Assembly (NCBI GenBank): GCA_028287395.1
Contig: JAQBPR010000227.1
Span: 1 to 64,000 of the forward strand
Reading direction: 5' to 3'
From: Bacilli bacterium
Lineage (GTDB): Bacteria > Bacillota > Bacilli > Paenibacillales > NBRC-103111
Length of the DNA: 64,000 nt
Of this stretch, positions 15,917 through 26,280 are shown in pieces; the first letter of the stretch is position 1, and every line of letters starts with the position of its first letter. The translations under genes and the position numbers were made by a program. The notes under the pieces are model-generated. The model was given only the letters and a program-made list of their open reading frames with translations. It was not told the DNA's origin and did no database searches.

Positions 15917-18421
15917 TCAACGCATTTTAAGAAATGTGGTCATTTCCTCAACTTCCAATGGTTCGCTAATAATATAGCCTTGAATTTCGGTGCATTTTCT
16001 GGCTCGTAAAAAAACGAGTTGTTCATAGGTTTCGACACCTTCCGCAACAACGGATAGTTTTAACCGGCGCGCTAAGGCAATCACCGTCTTCGTAATGGCT
16101 GCATCCTTGGAATCCGCTGATATATCTTGAATAAATGAGTTGTCCATTTTCAAAGTATCAATCGGAAAAAGCTTTAAATAGCTTAAAGAGGAAAACCCTG
16201 TGCCAAAATCATCAATCGATATTTTGACGCCCAATTCTCGTAATAAATTTAGTTTTGTTATCGTCATAGGGGCATTTCGCATAACCATGCTTTCAGTCAA
16301 TTCTAATTCCAACCAACAGGGTTCTAATCCGGTCTCTTTCAAGACGCGATTTACACATTGATAGAAATCATCTCGTTGAAATTGTAACGCAGAAATATTG
16401 ACTGAAACACGAATGGGAGACAAACCTTCTTTTTGCCATGCTTTATTCTGCAAGCAAGCGCTGCGCAATACCCACTCGCCAATTTCTATAATCGAACCTG
16501 ATTCTTCAGCTAATGAAATAAAATCTTCAGGATAAAGCAGACCCTGCTCCGCATGCTGCCAACGAATGAGAGCTTCCACACCGGTAATTTGTCCGGTAGC
16601 TAATTGTTGCTTAGGTTGATAATGCAGCAAAAATTCATCTCGTATCAGGGCTTCATGCAACGCTTTTTCCATTTGTAATCGTTCTTTTGCTTGCGCATTC
16701 ATTTCTTGCTCATAGAGTTGATAACTGTTTCGTCCTTGTGATTTAGCATAATACATGGCGGCATCTGCATTTCGAATCAACACTTCGGGGTCGTTTCCAT
16801 GCTGTGGAAATACACTTATACCTAAACTTCCCGAAATCGTCAATTCAAGGGACTCCAGCTTCAACGGCATGGATAAAGCAGCTAATAGTTTTTCAGCCAA
16901 TCCGGTCATTTGATCCAATTCTTTTAAGCCTGACAAAATAATCATAAATTCGTCGCCGCCCATACGCGTAACCGTATCTGACGCACGCAAACACAATTTC
17001 AGCCTTTCCGCCACATTCTGAAGAAGACTATCTCCCACACTATGCCCATACGTATCATTAACTGCTTTAAAACGATCTAAATCCAAAAACATCACACCGA
17101 CTAGCTCCTGATTACGTGAAGCCATTGCTAAAGCTTGCCCCAGCCGATCATTAAATAGAACCCGATTTGGCAAACCTGTCAGAGAATCATGATAAGCTAA
17201 AAATTTAATCTGTTCTTCCTGACTTTCACGCTCATTTAACATTTTTTCTAATGAAATCGCCATTTTGTTATAAGCAATTCCCACAGCCTGCAGCTCGTCC
17301 TTCGTATCAAGGTAAACACGTTCTCTTAAATTCCCATTTGACATTCGGGCTGCTGAACGCATCAATTTATAAATCGCGCGATGTACAGAAAGATAAAATC
17401 CCACAAACAAATAGACTAAGAGCAAACCAACTAAACAAGTAAATCCAGTTACAAAGTATTTTTTTTGTTTAAGCGCGTCCATTTTTTGCTTTAATACATC
17501 ATTTAAGATCGGTATCCCTGCATCAAATAATTTGTAACCATCATTCAAAGCATCTGTTCCCAAATTAAATTGATTTTGCGAATGGATTTGTGAAAAATCA
17601 GATAGCCTCAGAATCGTTTGCGTTAATTCGTCGTGAAAAATATGGAAGGTTAAAGCATAATGAACTAAGTATGGCTGTAGATCGTTGGAGCTGCGACTTA
17701 TGTATGAGTAATCCTGCAGATCTTTCTGAATCACTTCAAATTCGGGTTCAAATGTACCCGCTAAGACAATCATTCTTAATCGATCTGCTTCAGTTAGAAA
17801 ATTTCCGGCTACCGCACCTGAACTAAGTCCCCTGGCTTGTCCAACCGTTTCCAACATTTCAGGCAATTTATCAAGCAAACCCTCAATTAAGCTGCTTCCT
17901 TCACGATCTTGCTTAAGCCCCGAATAACTATTCACACTCGAAATCTGCGCTTGAATAAGTTTAACTATGTCCGAATGCTTCGTAAAGTTATCCAGAGAGC
18001 TGCCTTCACTTCCTGTCTTACTTAACAAGGCCTGCCATTCTCGTTTCAAATCTACCCAATGACTATTGTTTGCCCACTTCTCATCCAGCTTATTTTCAAA
18101 CCAATCCATATTCGCTATATCCTCATTAATTAACTTTTCATTTTCCGCGACCGCCTGCTTATTTTCTGTATCCCCATTCAACATCATGTAAGTTAAGCCT
18201 CGATGCTGTTGGATATGCTCCACTAAATGGCGGACAACAGCATTATACTCAACCCCTTCTGTTTCTAACTTCACAACAGCAATCTTTTGATTCAGATCTG
18301 AAATGAGTAAATATAGGGTGAGTCCTATCGGTAATAGAAAAAGAAGGCCAATGAGTGAAAACTTTTGTAGATAACTCAAGCGATTCATTAAACTAACGCC
18401 AGGAAAAAATAATCTTCTCAT
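15917..18421 (-). CDS. Membrane-anchored GGDEF-EAL protein with nitrate/sulfonate-type sensor region and HAMP
   Basis: RMGGDEFMIIL (GGDEF), GVEALIRWQ (EAL), two TMs, HAMP-like MSNGNLRERVYLDTKDELQ. Confidence 0.9.
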   Translation of the reverse strand: MRRLFFPGVSLMNRLSYLQKFSLIGLLFLLPIGLTLYLLISDLNQKIAVVKLETEGVEYNAVVRHLVEHIQQHRGLTYMMLNGDTENKQAVAENEKLINEDIANMDWFENKLDEKWANNSHWVDLKREWQALLSKTGSEGSSLDNFTKHSDIVKLIQAQISSVNSYSGLKQDREGSSLIEGLLDKLPEMLETVGQARGLSSGAVAGNFLTEADRLRMIVLAGTFEPEFEVIQKDLQDYSYISRSSNDLQPYLVHYALTFHIFHDELTQTILRLSDFSQIHSQNQFNLGTDALNDGYKLFDAGIPILNDVLKQKMDALKQKKYFVTGFTCLVGLLLVYLFVGFYLSVHRAIYKLMRSAARMSNGNLRERVYLDTKDELQAVGIAYNKMAISLEKMLNERESQEEQIKFLAYHDSLTGLPNRVLFNDRLGQALAMASRNQELVGVMFLDLDRFKAVNDTYGHSVGDSLLQNVAERLKLCLRASDTVTRMGGDEFMIILSGLKELDQMTGLAEKLLAALSMPLKLESLELTISGSLGISVFPQHGNDPEVLIRNADAAMYYAKSQGRNSYQLYEQEMNAQAKERLQMEKALHEALIRDEFLLHYQPKQQLATGQITGVEALIRWQHAEQGLLYPEDFISLAEESGSIIEIGEWVLRSACLQNKAWQKEGLSPIRVSVNISALQFQRDDFYQCVNRVLKETGLEPCWLELELTESMVMRNAPMTITKLNLLRELGVKISIDDFGTGFSSLSYLKLFPIDTLKMDNSFIQDISADSKDAAITKTVIALARRLKLSVVAEGVETYEQLVFLRARKCTEIQGYIISEPLEVEEMTTFLKMR

Positions 18422-18497: not shown

Positions 18498-18725
18498 TTA
18501 TAAGCTGCGCATCCGTTCCATCTGTTTCAGCTTCAGCTTCACTTCTTTGTCGACCTGTAGAACACCATGTAAATGCGCAGCAATCACAGTAAGCGCCAAT
18601 GAGAGCCAAACAATAGCGAATATCGTTGGCAGAGTGAAACCATGACCTACCTGCAGCTGTGGCACGGCGTACAGCATCATGCCTAGAGCTAGAATAATAC
18701 TAACCATATTAAGCCATCCTTTCAT
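18498..18725 (-). CDS. Small membrane protein of unknown function
   Basis: 75-aa ORF with two hydrophobic stretches; RBS-like AGGAGGGGA upstream. Confidence 0.55.
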   Translation of the reverse strand: MKGWLNMVSIILALGMMLYAVPQLQVGHGFTLPTIFAIVWLSLALTVIAAHLHGVLQVDKEVKLKLKQMERMRSL

Positions 18726-18826: not shown

Positions 18827-18854
18827 CACCAAGGAAAATATGCCCTCATATGAT
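18827..18854 (+). promoter_or_regulatory. Candidate SigK-type promoter of the YheC/YheD cluster
   Basis: CACC (-35, mACm) - 16 nt - CATATGAT (-10, CATAnnnT), followed by AAGGAGGG and ATGGCAAAA. Confidence 0.5.
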
Positions 18855-18881
18855 GAATGAGTGCTGGAAGGAGGGCCGACT

Positions 18882-20252
18882 ATGGCAAAAACGAACATCG
18901 TGATCAATGTGCAAAACGGTAATACCCTTCTGGAGGAACACGCTGTTTTACTTGGAGAATCCAACCTAAAAAAATGGAAATTGAAAGAGAACGAAACCGT
19001 TAACTTGCGTTATGGTTCTTTCAAAAAAGAAGTCAAAGTTGTTTCCGTTGCCCGACTGTCCGCACTGCGGCTCCATGAAGCTTTGGCTAATCGGCTGGGC
19101 TTACACCCGGGCGCGCGACTTTGTCTTCAATATAAACCACGCTCACGCACCATCCATCTTGGACCGTTAATTGGAGTACTGGTTAGCCGATTATATTTGA
19201 AAAATTTCGAAAAACCTTTTGGAGCCACCACTGCCTTCTGCAGGGAATTAACGGACGCTTGCGCCAAATACGGTGCATTCATTTATTTTTTCACACCAAA
19301 TGATATTCCTCCAACCATGCAAACGGTTCACGGCTGGTGCTATACCGATCATTGGGGTAAAAAAGAGTTTCCGATCCCAGATGTCATATACAATCGTTTA
19401 ACCTCACGTAAGTTAGAAAATAAAGTAAATGTGCAAAAATTTATGAAAGAAGCTAAATCGCGCTATGGCGCCGTTGTTTTTAACGAAAAATATTTGGATA
19501 AAACCGAGGTGTTTCAAGCCTTAAAAAAGGACGCTTCGCTTCATAGTTACTTGCCGGAATCCTACCTTTTAAAAAATTATTTGATGCTTAAAACAATGCT
19601 TGATCGGCATTCAACGCTTTTTCTAAAGCCAATCACTGGAAGTTTGGGCAAAGGAATCATCCGGATTGCCAAAATATCGAATACAAATTACCAATGCTCT
19701 TACAATTCTTTAAACGGCGTTCGTACACAAACGTTCATAAATCTTAGCGAGCTCTTTTCAAGCATTACCGGAAAAATAAAGCACCAGCGTTATCAAATTC
19801 AACAAGGCTTGAAATTAATTCAAGCGGGTGGTCGACCTGTAGATTTTCGTGTGCTCGTACAAAGAAACCACTTGGGTGAATGGTCTATCACCTCTGTCGT
19901 AGCGCGAACCGCAGGGGATCGCAATTTCGTCTCCAACCTTGCTAGAGGGGGTAGTCTCAGTACCGTACAGGATGTAGTTGCTAAATCTAACCTCAGTCCC
20001 TCAAAAAAAGGAAATTTGCACGCCAAACTGAGTAATTTGGCGCTGCAAATTGCTAAAGGGATGGACACACAAGTACCTGAGCATTTCGCTGAACTTGGCA
20101 TTGATTTGGCCGTGGATTCGTTGGGAAAAGTGTGGCTGATTGAAGTCAATTCCAAACCATCCAAGGATGATAATACACCGCTTCATGACAATAAAATCCG
20201 CCCTTCTGTCATTAAAGTTATCCGATATTCGCAATTTTTAGCGAAATTTTAA
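18882..20252 (+). CDS. YheC/YheD family ATP-grasp protein (copy 1, long form)
   Basis: LGPLIGVL, PDVIYNRLTSRKLE, FLKPITGSLGKGIIRI, ELGIDLAVDSLGKVWLIEVNSKPSK (ATP-grasp E-x-N). Confidence 0.88.
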   Translation: MAKTNIVINVQNGNTLLEEHAVLLGESNLKKWKLKENETVNLRYGSFKKEVKVVSVARLSALRLHEALANRLGLHPGARLCLQYKPRSRTIHLGPLIGVLVSRLYLKNFEKPFGATTAFCRELTDACAKYGAFIYFFTPNDIPPTMQTVHGWCYTDHWGKKEFPIPDVIYNRLTSRKLENKVNVQKFMKEAKSRYGAVVFNEKYLDKTEVFQALKKDASLHSYLPESYLLKNYLMLKTMLDRHSTLFLKPITGSLGKGIIRIAKISNTNYQCSYNSLNGVRTQTFINLSELFSSITGKIKHQRYQIQQGLKLIQAGGRPVDFRVLVQRNHLGEWSITSVVARTAGDRNFVSNLARGGSLSTVQDVVAKSNLSPSKKGNLHAKLSNLALQIAKGMDTQVPEHFAELGIDLAVDSLGKVWLIEVNSKPSKDDNTPLHDNKIRPSVIKVIRYSQFLAKF

Positions 20253-20255
20253 CTT

Positions 20256-21362
20256 ATGAATCATAGCCATGGAAAAAAAATCGTCGGTATTATGGTATGT
20301 GAAACAAATACAGGACCCCCACTGGCACAACAAAGCTTTTTTGCCCAATTATGCGCGCTCGGAGCAAAATACAATCTTTTGGTTTATGTTTTTTCTCCGC
20401 AGCATATCCATTTAAACTCTGCAACCATACAAGGTTACACTTATCATCCAGAAAACGAAAATCATTGGGCTTCACAAGAGCTTCCTTTGCCAGACCTAAT
20501 TTATGATCGTTCCTTTTTTGAAAACAGAACGCAATACATTAAACATCGTGCCGCAATTCGCGCTTTACTTACAATCAAAAAAATCCCTTACCTTGGGCGC
20601 TGTCTAAAAGGCAAATGGGAGGTGCATAAGGTATTGCAAACCGATGCTTTAATTGCCCCACATCTGCCGCAAACTGAATTATTATCCAATCTATCCACTC
20701 TCATTCGAAGATTGAATGACGATGGCGATGTTGTCATCAAGCCTGAGTTTGGCACACATGGAAAAGGGATTTTAGTTGTTACAAAAACAGAAAATTCGGA
20801 TTACTTTGTTCAGGGAAGAAACAACCTAAACCATTGCATCCGCAAAAAAATTTCAGATCCTATTGCTTTGTGTCGTTGGATTTCCCTATTCATCGGGTCA
20901 CGAAATTATTTAATACAAAAATATTTGCCTCTACTAACAAAACGTGGAGAAGCCTTTGATATCCGCGTATTATTGCAAAAGAATCAGCATGGAGATTGGA
21001 CCCTAACGGGGATGGCCGTTCGTTTAGGTCAACCATTAAGCATAACTTCAAATTTGCATGGTGGGGGCACAAGTCACCCCTTGTCTCCCTTCTTAGAGCA
21101 ACAGTTCGATCCAGACCAAGCAGAAATGATCAAAGTAAAAGCAATACAACTTGCGGAAAGCATCCCCCGCTTACTTGAACAACACTTTGGCAGACTTGCC
21201 GAGCTTGGCCTCGATCTCGGTGTCGATACAGCTGGACAAATATGGGTTATAGAGGTTAATTCAAAGCCCGGCAGGGCTGTCGCTCGATGCTTTAGTCAAC
21301 CAATGGCTTATCAGCATGCGATTCACAATCCAATACATTACGCTCGTTATTTATTGCATTAA
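20256..21362 (+). CDS. YheC/YheD family ATP-grasp protein (copy 2, short form)
   Basis: PDLIYDRSFFENRTQY, VIKPEFGTHGKGILVV, ELGLDLGVDTAGQIWVIEVNSKPGR. Confidence 0.88.
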   Translation: MNHSHGKKIVGIMVCETNTGPPLAQQSFFAQLCALGAKYNLLVYVFSPQHIHLNSATIQGYTYHPENENHWASQELPLPDLIYDRSFFENRTQYIKHRAAIRALLTIKKIPYLGRCLKGKWEVHKVLQTDALIAPHLPQTELLSNLSTLIRRLNDDGDVVIKPEFGTHGKGILVVTKTENSDYFVQGRNNLNHCIRKKISDPIALCRWISLFIGSRNYLIQKYLPLLTKRGEAFDIRVLLQKNQHGDWTLTGMAVRLGQPLSITSNLHGGGTSHPLSPFLEQQFDPDQAEMIKVKAIQLAESIPRLLEQHFGRLAELGLDLGVDTAGQIWVIEVNSKPGRAVARCFSQPMAYQHAIHNPIHYARYLLH

Positions 21363-21397
21363 GCGTGTTTTAGGAACAATCTTGGGAGGGTAACCTG

Positions 21398-22768
21398 ATG
21401 AGTTTGACCACCTGCAATGTCATTATTACACAACAGTCTGAAAAAGCCGTCACGATCACTCGCTCCTTAAGCAGAGCATTGCAACTATCCAAAGCCAAAA
21501 TGATTACCCTACGATTAGGCAATAAGTCAATCTCAGTTCCTGTGAAAATATGGAAACGCGAGGGCAATGTTCTAGCCTTACCTTTAAGTATTGCTTCTTC
21601 TATCCATTTACCTTCCGCTGGAAATTGCATGGTTAAAAGCAATAACGGGCGCGAGATTCAGTTGGGCCCGTTAATTGGAATTCTGGCTGGTCCAGCTAAT
21701 AATTCAGCACTTCCTTTTGGCGGAAGAACTGGATTCATTCGCGAGTTTATGCAGGCCGGGGCAAATAAAGCCTTTTATATTGCTTTTGCACCCCATCAAG
21801 TCGACTGGAATCGAGAGGTCGTCACAGGTTATTTTCCGAATGCGAACGGCAAATGGATCCGCAAAACTGTCCCGCTCCCCGATGTCGTCTATAACCGTTC
21901 TCCTAGTCGCAGAGCGGAAAATTCAGCAGCGATGACGTCTTTTAAAACAAAATTCGTCAATCGTAGAATCCCTTTATTTAATTGGAGCTTTTTTGACAAA
22001 TGGGATGTGTATCGTTTGCTTGACGGCGATCAAGAAGCTGCGAAATATGTACCTGAATCTGTTAACAACCCATCAAGTGATCAGATTCGTAGGATGATGG
22101 AAAAACATCGTTTTGTTTATTTAAAACCGAATACCGGCAGCTTAGGCATTGGGATTTATCGCCTAACCTATAATCCAAATCGCGGATATTACGCCCGCTT
22201 TCGCCGAAATGGCAGTAATGTACTTATTCGATTTCCGCGATTTGCGGGGCTTTTCAATATGCTTCAACGTCAAAATGTGAAGCTGCAATATTACGTTTTA
22301 CAACAAGGAGTGCGATTGATCGAAATGGAAAACTGCCCCATAGATTTTCGTTTTCATCTCACGAAAAATGGGCATAATCAATGGGTCGCTGCCGGAATCG
22401 GAGCTAAAAAGGCAGGCAGAGGCAGCGTGACAACACACGTTAGATCAGGCGGTCAATTGATGATGCCGGAGCAGGTTTTAAAAAGTGCATTCGGCAGCAG
22501 AGGCGATCATGTATTGGAACACGCCAAAGAAGTTGCAATTAAGCTTGCTGAAGCTATTGAGCGAAATTACAACCATACCTTAGCTGAGTTAGGCTTTGAT
22601 TTAGGGATCGATCAAAACGAGAAAGTATGGATGTTTGAAGCAAATGCTAAGCCAGGCCGTTCGATTTTCAAGCACCCTTCATTAAAAGCGCAAGGGAGGA
22701 CGTCTCTTGTCAATTTGTACGAACACTGTCTATATTTAAGCCGTTTTTACGCGAGGAGGGAGGGATAA
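21398..22768 (+). CDS. YheC/YheD family ATP-grasp protein (copy 3, long form)
   Basis: LGPLIGILAG, PDVVYNRSPSRRAE, YLKPNTGSLGIGIYRL, ELGFDLGIDQNEKVWMFEANAKPGR. Confidence 0.88.
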   Translation: MSLTTCNVIITQQSEKAVTITRSLSRALQLSKAKMITLRLGNKSISVPVKIWKREGNVLALPLSIASSIHLPSAGNCMVKSNNGREIQLGPLIGILAGPANNSALPFGGRTGFIREFMQAGANKAFYIAFAPHQVDWNREVVTGYFPNANGKWIRKTVPLPDVVYNRSPSRRAENSAAMTSFKTKFVNRRIPLFNWSFFDKWDVYRLLDGDQEAAKYVPESVNNPSSDQIRRMMEKHRFVYLKPNTGSLGIGIYRLTYNPNRGYYARFRRNGSNVLIRFPRFAGLFNMLQRQNVKLQYYVLQQGVRLIEMENCPIDFRFHLTKNGHNQWVAAGIGAKKAGRGSVTTHVRSGGQLMMPEQVLKSAFGSRGDHVLEHAKEVAIKLAEAIERNYNHTLAELGFDLGIDQNEKVWMFEANAKPGRSIFKHPSLKAQGRTSLVNLYEHCLYLSRFYARREG

Positions 22769-23893
22769 TTGAACGTTCGTTTACACGATAGCACTGCACA
22801 GACTTTGATCGCAATATTAACGATGCATGATGAACATCGCCTCTTTCGTGGCAACCTCTTTAATTTTATTGATTTGATTCGTACAGGCAAAGAAATGGGG
22901 GCTAAAGTATTTGTCGTCACAGCCAAAGATATCAAGCTTGGCAATCCCAAAGTAAAAAGCTTTGTTTATAATGCTGAAACTAAAGCATGGACTCAGAAAC
23001 TACTTCCGTTACCTCATGTCATTTATAATCGAATTCCTTCGCGCAAGGATGAATTGCTGCCAGAGGTACAGCAAACCATTCAAGCCTGCATGAAGCACAA
23101 AAATATCCATTTATTTAATCCAAGTTTTTTTAATAAATGGACTTTATTTGAATGGTTAAGCAAAGCGAAAACAACAAAAAAATTCATACCGGCCACCCGC
23201 AAGTTTTTCCATTTACAAGAGCTTGAATCTATGCTGCGGCAATATTCGCTTGTCTACTTGAAGCCCGCACGAGGCAAAGCTGGAAAAGGAATCATGAAAA
23301 TCGACTTTGCTAATTCGAACTTTGGATTGCTTTATAGATTGCACATTCAGCATATGAAAAAAAGCCGTATTTCGCTGCATCGTACGATATATGAGCTTGG
23401 ACAAAAGTTGCAGCAGCACATTGGATTGGAGGAATATATCGTACAGCAGGGCATTCATTTAGCCAAATTTAATAATCGCGCCTTTGATTTACGAGTTTTG
23501 GTACAAAAAAACGCCAAAGGGGTATGGAGTTTGACTGGGATCGGGGCAAGAGTGGCCGGAAGTCTGAGCATTACAACGCATGTGCCTCGCGGAGGTTCGA
23601 TTGACGAACCGGAAAAATTGTTGAAGCTAGCTTTCGGCCAAGAAGCAGCTAAACAAATTATGCGCCGCGTGAGACTTTCCGCTTATGCTATTGCAAGACA
23701 AATCGAAAAAGCATCAAAAAATACAATGGGTGAAATGTCATTGGATTTGGGCATAGACACATCTGGACAAATTTGGTTTTTTGAAGCAAATTCCCGACCG
23801 ATGAAATTTGACGAACCTGAAATACGCAAAAAATCTTTGGAGCGCATTATCCAATATAGTGAATATTTGAAACAATCGAGAAAGAAAAAGTAG
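22769..23893 (+). CDS. YheC/YheD family ATP-grasp protein (copy 4, short form, TTG start)
   Basis: PHVIYNRIPSRKDE, YLKPARGKAGKGIMKI, EMSLDLGIDTSGQIWFFEANSRPMK. Confidence 0.87.
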   Translation: MNVRLHDSTAQTLIAILTMHDEHRLFRGNLFNFIDLIRTGKEMGAKVFVVTAKDIKLGNPKVKSFVYNAETKAWTQKLLPLPHVIYNRIPSRKDELLPEVQQTIQACMKHKNIHLFNPSFFNKWTLFEWLSKAKTTKKFIPATRKFFHLQELESMLRQYSLVYLKPARGKAGKGIMKIDFANSNFGLLYRLHIQHMKKSRISLHRTIYELGQKLQQHIGLEEYIVQQGIHLAKFNNRAFDLRVLVQKNAKGVWSLTGIGARVAGSLSITTHVPRGGSIDEPEKLLKLAFGQEAAKQIMRRVRLSAYAIARQIEKASKNTMGEMSLDLGIDTSGQIWFFEANSRPMKFDEPEIRKKSLERIIQYSEYLKQSRKKK

Positions 23894-24994
23894 GTGGAAG
23901 CATTGTCCCATCCAACTCTCGGCGTTATGGCGCTTTATATGAATCAAAAAAAACTGGAGGAGCTCAATTATTTTCGCCGGTTAATTTCTTTTGGTAAAAA
24001 ACTGAATCTCAATGTCATTATATTTACACCAGAGGACGTTCTTCCTGAAAAAAATCAAATAACAGCTCTGCAATACGATATTAAAAAAGCCAAATGGTTC
24101 AGCAGTATAAAACCAATACCCGATTTAATTTACGATCGTTGTCGTTTTCAACAAACCTATCGTTTTGCATTGCTGCGCAAATTCCGTACGAACTATCCTC
24201 AGATCACCTATATTAATCACCCGATGGCACACAAATGGCCCGTCCATCAATTGCTTTATAAAAACCGAACGATTCGCCCCTTTCTTCCTGAGACGATAAA
24301 ATATAAGCAAGCATCTGACTTAATTTCGTTTTTGCAAAATCATAGTCTTGTTTATTTAAAGCCCAGCAACGGTACAGGTGGCAGAGGCATTCTTTCCATT
24401 CGGCGTTTAACTGATGGCCTATGCTTGGTTCAAGGCAGAGATCTTTTCAGAAAAATTATCACCCCGCGTAAGATGAAAATAGAACAAATTTCCATTCGTT
24501 TTAACTCTTGGGGGTTAAAGGATCGTTACTTGATCCAGCAAGGCATTCCTTTAGCATTACCTGACGGACGTGTACATGACTATCGATTATTAATCCAAAA
24601 AAACGACATAGGTCAATGGGAGGTAACCGGTTGTGCAGGTCGGGTCGGCCCCGCACGCAGTATTACCTCCAATCTTCATGGCGGCGGTATGGCATTGCCG
24701 ATGATGAAATTACTGCACAGTCGATTTTCATCCACTGCTAAAATAAACGAAATCAAAGAGACGATGGAACAATTGAGCCATGAAGTTGTGATTCAATTAG
24801 AAAATCAATATGGTCGACTTTGCGAAATGGCACTGGACATTGCCGTTTCACCTTCAGGTCGAGTATGGCTATTGGAAGTGAACCCAAAACCAGCGCGCGA
24901 AGTATTCCGCTTGATTAAAGAAACAGAAACGTATGAAAAAGCCATTCGCCGTCCATTAGAATACGCGCTGTGGTTGCATAAGCAAGAAAAATAG
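23894..24994 (+). CDS. YheC/YheD family ATP-grasp protein (copy 5, short form)
   Basis: PDLIYDRCRFQQTY, YLKPSNGTGGRGILSI, EMALDIAVSPSGRVWLLEVNPKPAR; start GTG 23894 or TTG 23903. Confidence 0.87.
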   Translation: MEALSHPTLGVMALYMNQKKLEELNYFRRLISFGKKLNLNVIIFTPEDVLPEKNQITALQYDIKKAKWFSSIKPIPDLIYDRCRFQQTYRFALLRKFRTNYPQITYINHPMAHKWPVHQLLYKNRTIRPFLPETIKYKQASDLISFLQNHSLVYLKPSNGTGGRGILSIRRLTDGLCLVQGRDLFRKIITPRKMKIEQISIRFNSWGLKDRYLIQQGIPLALPDGRVHDYRLLIQKNDIGQWEVTGCAGRVGPARSITSNLHGGGMALPMMKLLHSRFSSTAKINEIKETMEQLSHEVVIQLENQYGRLCEMALDIAVSPSGRVWLLEVNPKPAREVFRLIKETETYEKAIRRPLEYALWLHKQEK

Positions 24995-25012
24995 CCGGAA
25001 TTCTCCGGCTAT
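24991..25012 (+). terminator. Hairpin terminating the YheC/YheD cluster (no strong T-tract)
   Basis: ATAGCCGGA-ATTC-TCCGGCTAT perfect 9-bp stem; includes the stop codon of copy 5. Confidence 0.55.
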
Positions 25013-25122
25013 TAAACTGTTGAGAAACCTTTTACGTTTCAGATCTGTTTCAACACAAATAACCCACAAAATGCCTGAGCATTCATGGGTTAAAAACAAT
25101 ACCTAAATATATTTAAAACTAT

Positions 25123-25692
25123 TTAAAATACCTTCTGCACGCTTTGCTCCACCTTTAATATTTCCACTGCTTCCCTGAAGCGATGAGCGTGAATAATTTC
25201 CCGCTCACGAAGAAATTTGAGGCCGTCTTGCAAATCGACATCATCCGTCATATCGATTAACCATTGATACGTAGCGCGTGCCTTTTCCTCGGCTGCAATA
25301 TCTTCATATAAATCCGCAATGGGGTCGCCTTTGGCTTGAATATAAGCTGCTGTCCAAGGGACTCCTGCTGCGTTTTCATAAAATAAGGCTCTGTCATGGG
25401 ACACATAATGCGCTCCTAAGCCTGCTGCCTTTAGCTGTTCAACCGTAGCGTCTTTTGTAAGCTTATACACCATGGTCGCAATCATTTCTAAATGAGCAAA
25501 TTCTTCCGTTCCTATGTCAGTTAGCAGTCCGATTACCTTATCAGGTATCGTATAGCGTTGGTTAAAATAACGTAACGCTGCTGCCAGCTCCCCATCCGCT
25601 CCACCATACTGCTCCATTAAAAATTTAGCCATTTGCGGATCGCATTTACTTACGCGAACCGGATACTGTAGTTTTTTTTCATAAATCCACAT
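25123..25692 (-). CDS. cotJC: Spore coat protein CotJC (manganese catalase family)
   Basis: MWIYEKKLQYPVRVSKCDPQMAKFLMEQYGGADGELAAALRYFNQRY, TEEFAHLEMIATMVYKL. Confidence 0.96.
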   Translation of the reverse strand: MWIYEKKLQYPVRVSKCDPQMAKFLMEQYGGADGELAAALRYFNQRYTIPDKVIGLLTDIGTEEFAHLEMIATMVYKLTKDATVEQLKAAGLGAHYVSHDRALFYENAAGVPWTAAYIQAKGDPIADLYEDIAAEEKARATYQWLIDMTDDVDLQDGLKFLREREIIHAHRFREAVEILKVEQSVQKVF

Positions 25693-25710
25693 AGAGGTTT
25701 TCTCCTTTTT

Positions 25711-25974
25711 TTATACTTGCCAAGGCCAGGGATCTTCGGACCATTGCCAGGGTAACCGGGAATAACTATGTCCGTACTGCAACAACGGACCATATTTTGC
25801 TTCATAATTTGCAGCAACTTGCTGCCTCATTTGTGTAAATTGGTTGAATTGCTGAATGGCCTGAACATCATTAGGATGAGTATCGAGATATAAGGTTAGC
25901 TCCACTAATACAAAATCGAGAGCTTGCAGTTCATGCAGATGTTTATAGTATTCATCATTCGTTTGTTTCTTCAT
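25711..25974 (-). CDS. cotJB: Spore coat protein CotJB
   Basis: YYKHLHELQALDFVLVELTLYLDTHPND ... YGPLLQYGHSYSRLPWQWSEDPWPWQV. Confidence 0.94.
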   Translation of the reverse strand: MKKQTNDEYYKHLHELQALDFVLVELTLYLDTHPNDVQAIQQFNQFTQMRQQVAANYEAKYGPLLQYGHSYSRLPWQWSEDPWPWQV

Positions 25975-25992
25975 ATTCGATTCGCCCCTCTC

Positions 25993-26199
25993 TTATTTTC
26001 TGGCTTCGTACGGACTATAGAAAGCAGGCCATAGCGTGCCAGCTTTTAAAGCTTCATAGGCATTAAATTGGGGCAAGCACATCGGTTGAAAGGGAGCATA
26101 TAAATTAGATGCGGTAATATACGTTTTGCAACGGATCGGTGGACAAGGATCGTACGGACCTACAAAAGTTTCATAACCTTTATAGGGACTATTCATGGT
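25993..26199 (-). CDS. cotJA: Spore coat associated protein CotJA
   Basis: YEAFQPMCLPQFN-like core (APFQPMCLPQFNAYEALKAGTLWPAFYSPYE) upstream of cotJB. Internal start MNSPYKGYE (AAAGGAGGAATTTACCATG) preferred over the 26274 start of the ORF track. Confidence 0.88.
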   Translation of the reverse strand, partial: TMNSPYKGYETFVGPYDPCPPIRCKTYITASNLYAPFQPMCLPQFNAYEALKAGTLWPAFYSPYEARK

Positions 26200-26244
26200 A
26201 AATTCCTCCTTTATGGGCTCTGTATTAGGCTCTCCTTTAAGGTA

Positions 26245-26280
26245 TGACAAATGCCTATCTTTCGTTATAGGCATTTGTCA
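26245..26280 (-). repeat. Perfect 14-bp inverted repeat in the cotJ leader
   Basis: TGACAAATGCCTAT-CTTTCGTT-ATAGGCATTTGTCA (plus strand), 45-81 nt upstream of the cotJA start. Confidence 0.85.

Follow-up and report, generated by a model that had tools for sequence, protein, structure and literature searches.

Five distinct YheC/YheD-type ATP-grasp genes in a conserved, sporulation-linked array of the Paenibacillales: a candidate coat ligation system

In their 2009 survey of amidoligases, Iyer and colleagues reportedly predicted that the YheC/D ATP-grasp proteins modify spore-wall proteins, and Pfam predicts the same. YheC and YheD have remained for two decades coat-associated proteins of unknown function. 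In Bacillus subtilis, YheD is a SpoIVA-dependent coat protein that forms two rings and then a shell around the forespore and interacts strongly with itself in two-hybrid assays, which places a product of the PF14398 family in the coat (PMC7911427). The family and its coat association in this species are already known. Here we describe a tandem array of five PF14398 genes located in a stretch of 64,000 nucleotides (contig JAQBPR010000227.1, called here the window) from a genome of the order Paenibacillales, class Bacilli, and we propose that this array may be a ligation system directed at the spore coat. Among the papers open to our search, we found none on the five-gene orthology or on the linkage between cotE and PF14395 reported below, nor any that treats YheC/YheD together with ATP-grasp.

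Five orthologous groups in a conserved order

Five consecutive plus-strand genes, called here slots 1 to 5, make up the array.

18882..20252, plus strand: slot 1, long YheCD ATP-grasp, Asn-type (PF14398, E 4.3e-77)
20256..21362, plus strand: slot 2, short YheCD ATP-grasp, Asn-type (PF14398, E 1.8e-76)
21398..22768, plus strand: slot 3, long YheCD ATP-grasp, His-type (PF14398, E 1.6e-80)
22769..23893, plus strand: slot 4, short YheCD ATP-grasp, His-type (PF14398, E 2.2e-79)
23903..24994, plus strand: slot 5, short YheCD ATP-grasp, Asn-type (PF14398, E 5.6e-76)

An earlier note on this DNA had read these genes as tandem YheC/D ATP-grasp genes, and both a check of the open reading frames (ORFs) and the PF14398 matches, which reach 255.6-270.5 bits against a cut-off of 26.8 and run from profile positions 1-3 to 255, agree with that reading. 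The five proteins share 22-35% pairwise identity. Regarding the gene starts, ATG 18882, with GGAGG just upstream, is more likely for gene 1 than GTG 18861, and TTG 23903, with AGGTGG upstream, is more likely for gene 5 than GTG 23894, because the Shine-Dalgarno spacing fits 18882 and 23903. With the latter start, the last intergenic gap measures about 9 nucleotides and not 0 as first given.

The PF14398 family was present in 60 of the 60 relatives searched, and most arrays in the order consist of exactly five genes with the pattern long-short-long-short-short. Slot 4 is short in the window and long in most other Bacilli loci fetched. When 64 proteins, drawn from thirteen array loci and three lone slot-5 genes, were analysed with IQ-TREE, each slot formed one clade in 100% of the bootstrap trees, with a support of 100/99 for slots 1, 3 and 4 and of 100/98 for slots 2 and 5. 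Slots 2 and 5 group together as sister clades (100/100), slots 1, 3 and 4 forming the other half of the tree. FastTree analyses of 282 and then about 490 proteins gave nearly pure slot groups, among which those of slots 1 and 5 were less well supported. Among 80 named Paenibacillaceae loci, the exact order 1-2-3-4-5 was found in 68, and contig ends cut some of the shorter loci; since loci were picked by strong matches, such order counts are no unbiased census. Each copy is thus its own orthologous group with a conserved place in the array, and recent strain-specific duplication is not supported.

Outside the order, many of the Bacilli loci fetched keep slots 1-2-3-4 in sequence. Slot 5 stands at the end of the array in L115 and L126, and also in L153, L154, L161 and L166, where slot 3 is missing, and it lies alone elsewhere in the genome in L114, L117, L162, L164, L167 and L168. 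Further deviations are the loci linked to cotE, which begin with a gene fitting no slot, and other families without one or more slots. Clustered PF14398 genes also occur beyond the class, in phylum-level genomes (G193, G237, G275, G309 and others), and Clostridia have such clusters. At locus L098 (genome G024) a slot-1-like gene, possibly a relocated slot, lies alone on another contig, the array of that genome being without slot 1, and at L074 slot 4 is broken into two ORFs, perhaps as a pseudogene or through a sequencing error. It should be noted that, apart from the array, the window's genome carries seven or more other PF14398 genes or gene fragments (contigs C142, C151, C97, C27 and C98; L006-L012 and L099-L101); those tested fall into clades other than the five slots. 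The match on C97 (48,819-49,145) has internal stops and looks decayed.

Among 461 sequences, two Lys, a Gln, D-x-R, a GG pair, E-x-x-x-D and E-x-N were 97-100% conserved in every slot. One position of the active-site loop is fixed by slot, being Asn in slots 1, 2 and 5 and His in slots 3 and 4, and an additional Arg-to-Lys change is restricted to slot 3. The Asn-type loop (SITSNLHGGG in slot 2) aligns with FRSNLHRGG of RimK; slot 1 carries a loop of this type in a ligase domain preceded by an N-terminal beta-rich domain. This residue pattern fits distinct specificities under purifying selection, without saying which. The KPxxGxxGxGI and ExN segments are present in all five proteins as previously described, and the conserved ATP-grasp residues support the earlier proposal that these are five non-identical, apparently catalytically competent ligases.

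AlphaFold models, which covered two of the five copies, predict an intact ATP-grasp fold for slot 2 (predicted local distance difference test score, pLDDT, 93.8; nearest fold RimK) and for slot 3 (pLDDT 92.1; nearest folds ArgX, a graspetide ligase, Ddl and RimK), so that the idea of intact ATP sites throughout the array, raised in the earlier note, holds for these two slots. Foldseek searches with both models returned hundreds of matches, the top ones being ATP-grasp ligases. The best matches in the PDB were ArgX with LysW, a graspetide ligase, Ddl, RimK, GshB and TTL, and PsnB was also found. Direct sequence relatives of slot 4 were not found in the PDB by single-sequence search.

Links to sporulation, cotE and a second amidoligase

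Of 120 Bacilli genomes, 87 had both PF14398 and SpoIVA and 23 had neither, single occurrences amounting to 4 and 6 (p=2.4e-15, a value that overstates independence because the genomes are related). PF14398 tracks endosporulation. A promoter of the SigK type lies in front of the array.

18827..18856, plus strand: SigK-type promoter, CACC-N16-CATATGATGA, conserved in orthologous upstream regions

This promoter, already noticed from the sequence, is a match to a consensus string which, like that of SigE, was taken from general knowledge. At least 8 of the 10 SigK consensus positions were found in 91% of 74 orthologous upstream regions as against 29% of shuffles. The site occurs once in the window, with 0 expected, and its extended form has a single occurrence in the window's genome, with no further copies. 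In the same 74 regions, the SigE and SigG matches were at the null and the SigA match was near it, and a SigE promoter upstream of the array was rejected. The conserved SigK-type promoter supports the prediction that the five genes form one sporulation-controlled operon.

The array is further linked to a COOH-NH2 ligase of another family, PF14395, and to the coat gene cotE. Neighbour clustering brought up 12 loci from other families in which a PF14395 gene lies within the array or follows it directly (E 1e-95 to 1e-105 for the three proteins tested from such merged loci). In 8 of these 12, the gene immediately before the first array gene encodes CotE (PF10628, E 1.3e-62 in one tested). In some other families, the array and the PF14395 ligase are inserted between cotE and mutS. 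In the window's order, cotE and PF14395 are not in the array; 58 of 61 genomes have PF14395, almost all of them in one copy, and the gene order cotE-PF14395-mutS was found in all 15 order loci fetched, that of the window's genome included.

L174:7595-12408, contig C88: cotE-PF14395-mutS cluster of the window's genome, the same in 14 other order loci

In the class sample, PF14395 was confined to genomes that carry PF14398 (77 of 91 against 0 of 29, p=1.4e-17). Such a difference between lineages, the array standing apart in one and joined to PF14395 and cotE in another, classically points to a shared pathway. In PF14395 proteins (e.g. L158:7945-9381), the N-terminal 210 or so residues that precede the ligase domain have no Pfam match and, by eye, close with an ATP-grasp-like segment (LGLDFGLVSIG...LYVLDVSPTP); this region is possibly a degenerate fused ATP-grasp domain.

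The C-terminal tail of CotE is strongly acidic in the CotE of the window's genome (L174:7595-8191) and in 22 other CotE genes; in the order it has 14-19 Asp/Glu in the last 35 residues compared to a background mean of 3.7 and a 99.5th percentile of 12.6. A motif resembling (F/Y)(E/D)(D/E)LDPDLLDDEL recurs in the CotE of the order. The targets of TTL and RimK are acidic tails or C-termini, and by this parallel CotE is the first candidate substrate, improbable as it is as a specific claim. By themselves, acidic tails are weak evidence for this role.

A proposed coat-directed ligation system and its alternatives

We favour, with moderate confidence, the reading of the array as a multi-step, coat-directed carboxylate-amine ligation system, in which the five array ligases and a sixth, unrelated one probably make or alter a component of the spore coat. 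The proposal starts from the observed orthology and order of the slots, their conserved active sites, the promoter match and the linkage to sporulation, cotE and PF14395. The array would be an ancient operon for coat maturation, passed on by vertical descent; the SigK-type promoter would drive its transcription late in the mother cell, and its five products would be paralogous, functionally non-redundant ATP-grasp ligases. The proposed reaction would begin with ATP and Mg2+ turning a carboxylate into an acyl phosphate, which is then coupled to an amine; every one of the five enzymes would do this with a donor or acceptor of its own, slots 1, 2 and 5 being of the Asn type and slots 3 and 4 of the His type. 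The PF14395 ligase, encoded directly after cotE, would cooperate with the five array enzymes, and a coat protein, or a peptide bound to the coat, would thereby gain amino acids or isopeptide links. We infer the amide chemistry, the coat substrate and the cooperation of the enzymes, the first two because the folds are like those of RimK, TTL and ArgX.

Several points weigh against this proposal. Any widespread sporulation gene would give a correlation like that with SpoIVA, and a common location is no proof of a common pathway. The Foldseek template modelling (TM) scores are moderate (about 0.4-0.7), as throughout the superfamily, so that the fold matches do not fix the substrate, and the searchable literature yielded no substrate, product or activity of any PF14398 member. 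B. subtilis, which lacked PF14395 in a control search and according to the literature has yheC and yheD only, sporulates, which indicates that sporulation itself can do without the full system. Finally, B. subtilis yheC and yheD are under SigE and SpoIIID control and are not known as SigK genes (PMC517825).

The proposal can also be put in a general and in a more specific form. It is possible, as a tentative reading, that the coat ligation system comprises two unrelated ligase families and has been reduced in B. subtilis. Quite improbable in our estimation is an ancestral Bacilli system that extends or cross-links the acidic tail of CotE, in the manner of TTL or RimK, with a partner coat protein as alternative target; the loss of everything but slots 2 and 3 from B. 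subtilis would explain why such a system has been overlooked.

Two rival explanations, each unlikely, deserve consideration. According to the first, the proteins are mainly structural and self-assemble into a coat layer, the ATP-grasp fold serving ATP-dependent assembly and not ligation. The rings, shell and strong self-interaction of YheD (PMC7911427) and the co-location with coat genes speak for it. Against it stands the 97-100% conservation, in all slots throughout the class, of catalytic residues and metal ligands, even beyond the nucleotide site, for which a scaffold would have no need. According to the second, which we judge about equally unlikely, the five enzymes make a small molecule or a ribosomally encoded peptide, graspetide- or LysW-like, during sporulation and do not modify the coat. 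ArgX with its LysW carrier, a graspetide ligase and PsnB are among the nearest folds, several ligases in one operon would suit stepwise synthesis, and about 32 loci (L115, L126, L153, L161, L078 and some 27 others) carry a GNAT acetyltransferase gene that separates slot 4 from slot 5 or directly follows slot 4. By contrast, the array holds no precursor or carrier gene, its intergenic gaps measuring 3-35 nucleotides, and among ORFs of at least 60 codons no small family recurs in the operon, shorter peptides encoded elsewhere escaping this search. GNAT was not found in the window's genome and is rejected as a universal component. As for a recent lineage-specific tandem duplication with redundant copies, it would explain homologues arranged in tandem and is nonetheless extremely improbable, for every slot is monophyletic across orders (100/98-99 with IQ-TREE), collinear order is kept across loci and residues are fixed by slot, the IQ-TREE and FastTree phylogenies together refuting a strain-specific origin.

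Flanking genes and known systems

Downstream, the array converges with the cotJABC operon, from which it is separated by a hairpin.

24990..25013, minus strand: intrinsic-terminator hairpin with a minus-strand T-run, lying between the array and cotJABC, which converge
25123..26274, minus strand: cotJC, cotJB and cotJA, convergent neighbour (PF05067, PF12652 and PF11007)

The hairpin reported after gene 5 exists, but since its T-run is on the minus strand it is oriented, as an intrinsic terminator, for the convergent cotJABC operon; a role in both directions is possible. The identification of the neighbours as cotJABC was correct according to the three Pfam matches. As a link to the coat, however, this adjacency is confined to the order among the loci fetched: cotJC is a near neighbour of the array in some 25 of the 57 loci from the order and in none of the other Bacilli loci. 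The link through cotE and PF14395, outside the window, is the stronger one. Upstream and divergent, positions 18501-18725 (minus strand) encode a conserved small membrane-like protein of 75 residues, found in about 26 loci and without Pfam match, and a gene for a GGDEF-EAL protein with a HAMP domain (15917-18421, minus strand) adjoins the array in this genus (also at L042). A role of the array in anti-phage defence was discarded, as PADLOC gave no match.

Regarding known ligases, RimK and ArgX-LysX are top Foldseek matches of the slot 2 and slot 3 models. The array proteins differ from RimK in falling below its family cut-off (TIGR00768, best 24.3 bits against 143.4), in their longer N-terminal region and in the His that replaces Asn in slots 3 and 4. 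TTL/TTLL enzymes may be a partial parallel: PF03133 scores above cut-off in window genes 1 and 2 with a match covering only part of the domain, and TTLL6 and TTL are among the profile matches to solved structures; we know of no tubulin-like substrate of the array enzymes, and the acidic tail of CotE as an analogue of the tubulin tail is speculative. Graspetide (microviridin-type) ligases share the ATP-grasp fold (structural match 7mgv) and differ in that the array has a coat linkage instead of a precursor peptide gene in the operon; no linked precursor was found, there being no intergenic room and no recurrent in-array gene of at least 60 codons. The PF14395 ligase, a phiEco32-like COOH.NH2 ligase of type 2, is likewise an amidoligase, co-located with YheCD genes and cotE, but belongs to another Pfam family and is encoded by a separate partner gene outside the window.

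The closest described relatives are YheC and YheD of B. subtilis, members of the same Pfam family. Locus L141 holds slot 2 (363 residues) followed by slot 3 (452 residues) only, beside DUF445 and YlbF genes, which we take to agree with B. subtilis yheC-yheD in lengths, order and neighbours. These lengths and neighbours suggest that YheC and YheD may be remnants of slots 2 and 3, respectively, slot 2 of the window being probably orthologous to YheC and slot 3 to YheD. Many Bacilli arrays have B. subtilis-like neighbours, the yheB-like DUF445 and yheA-like YlbF genes, divergent upstream. By contrast, the array has five slots instead of two, a SigK-type promoter instead of SigE/SpoIIID control (PMC517825) and, in the window's genome, a PF14395 ligase beside cotE that is absent from B. 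subtilis. Five apparently ancient ligase lineages tied to CotE and to a second amidoligase offer a testable hypothesis of enzymatic coat modification, and this comparison suggests that B. subtilis may be the wrong organism in which to study it, Paenibacillus having the complete set.

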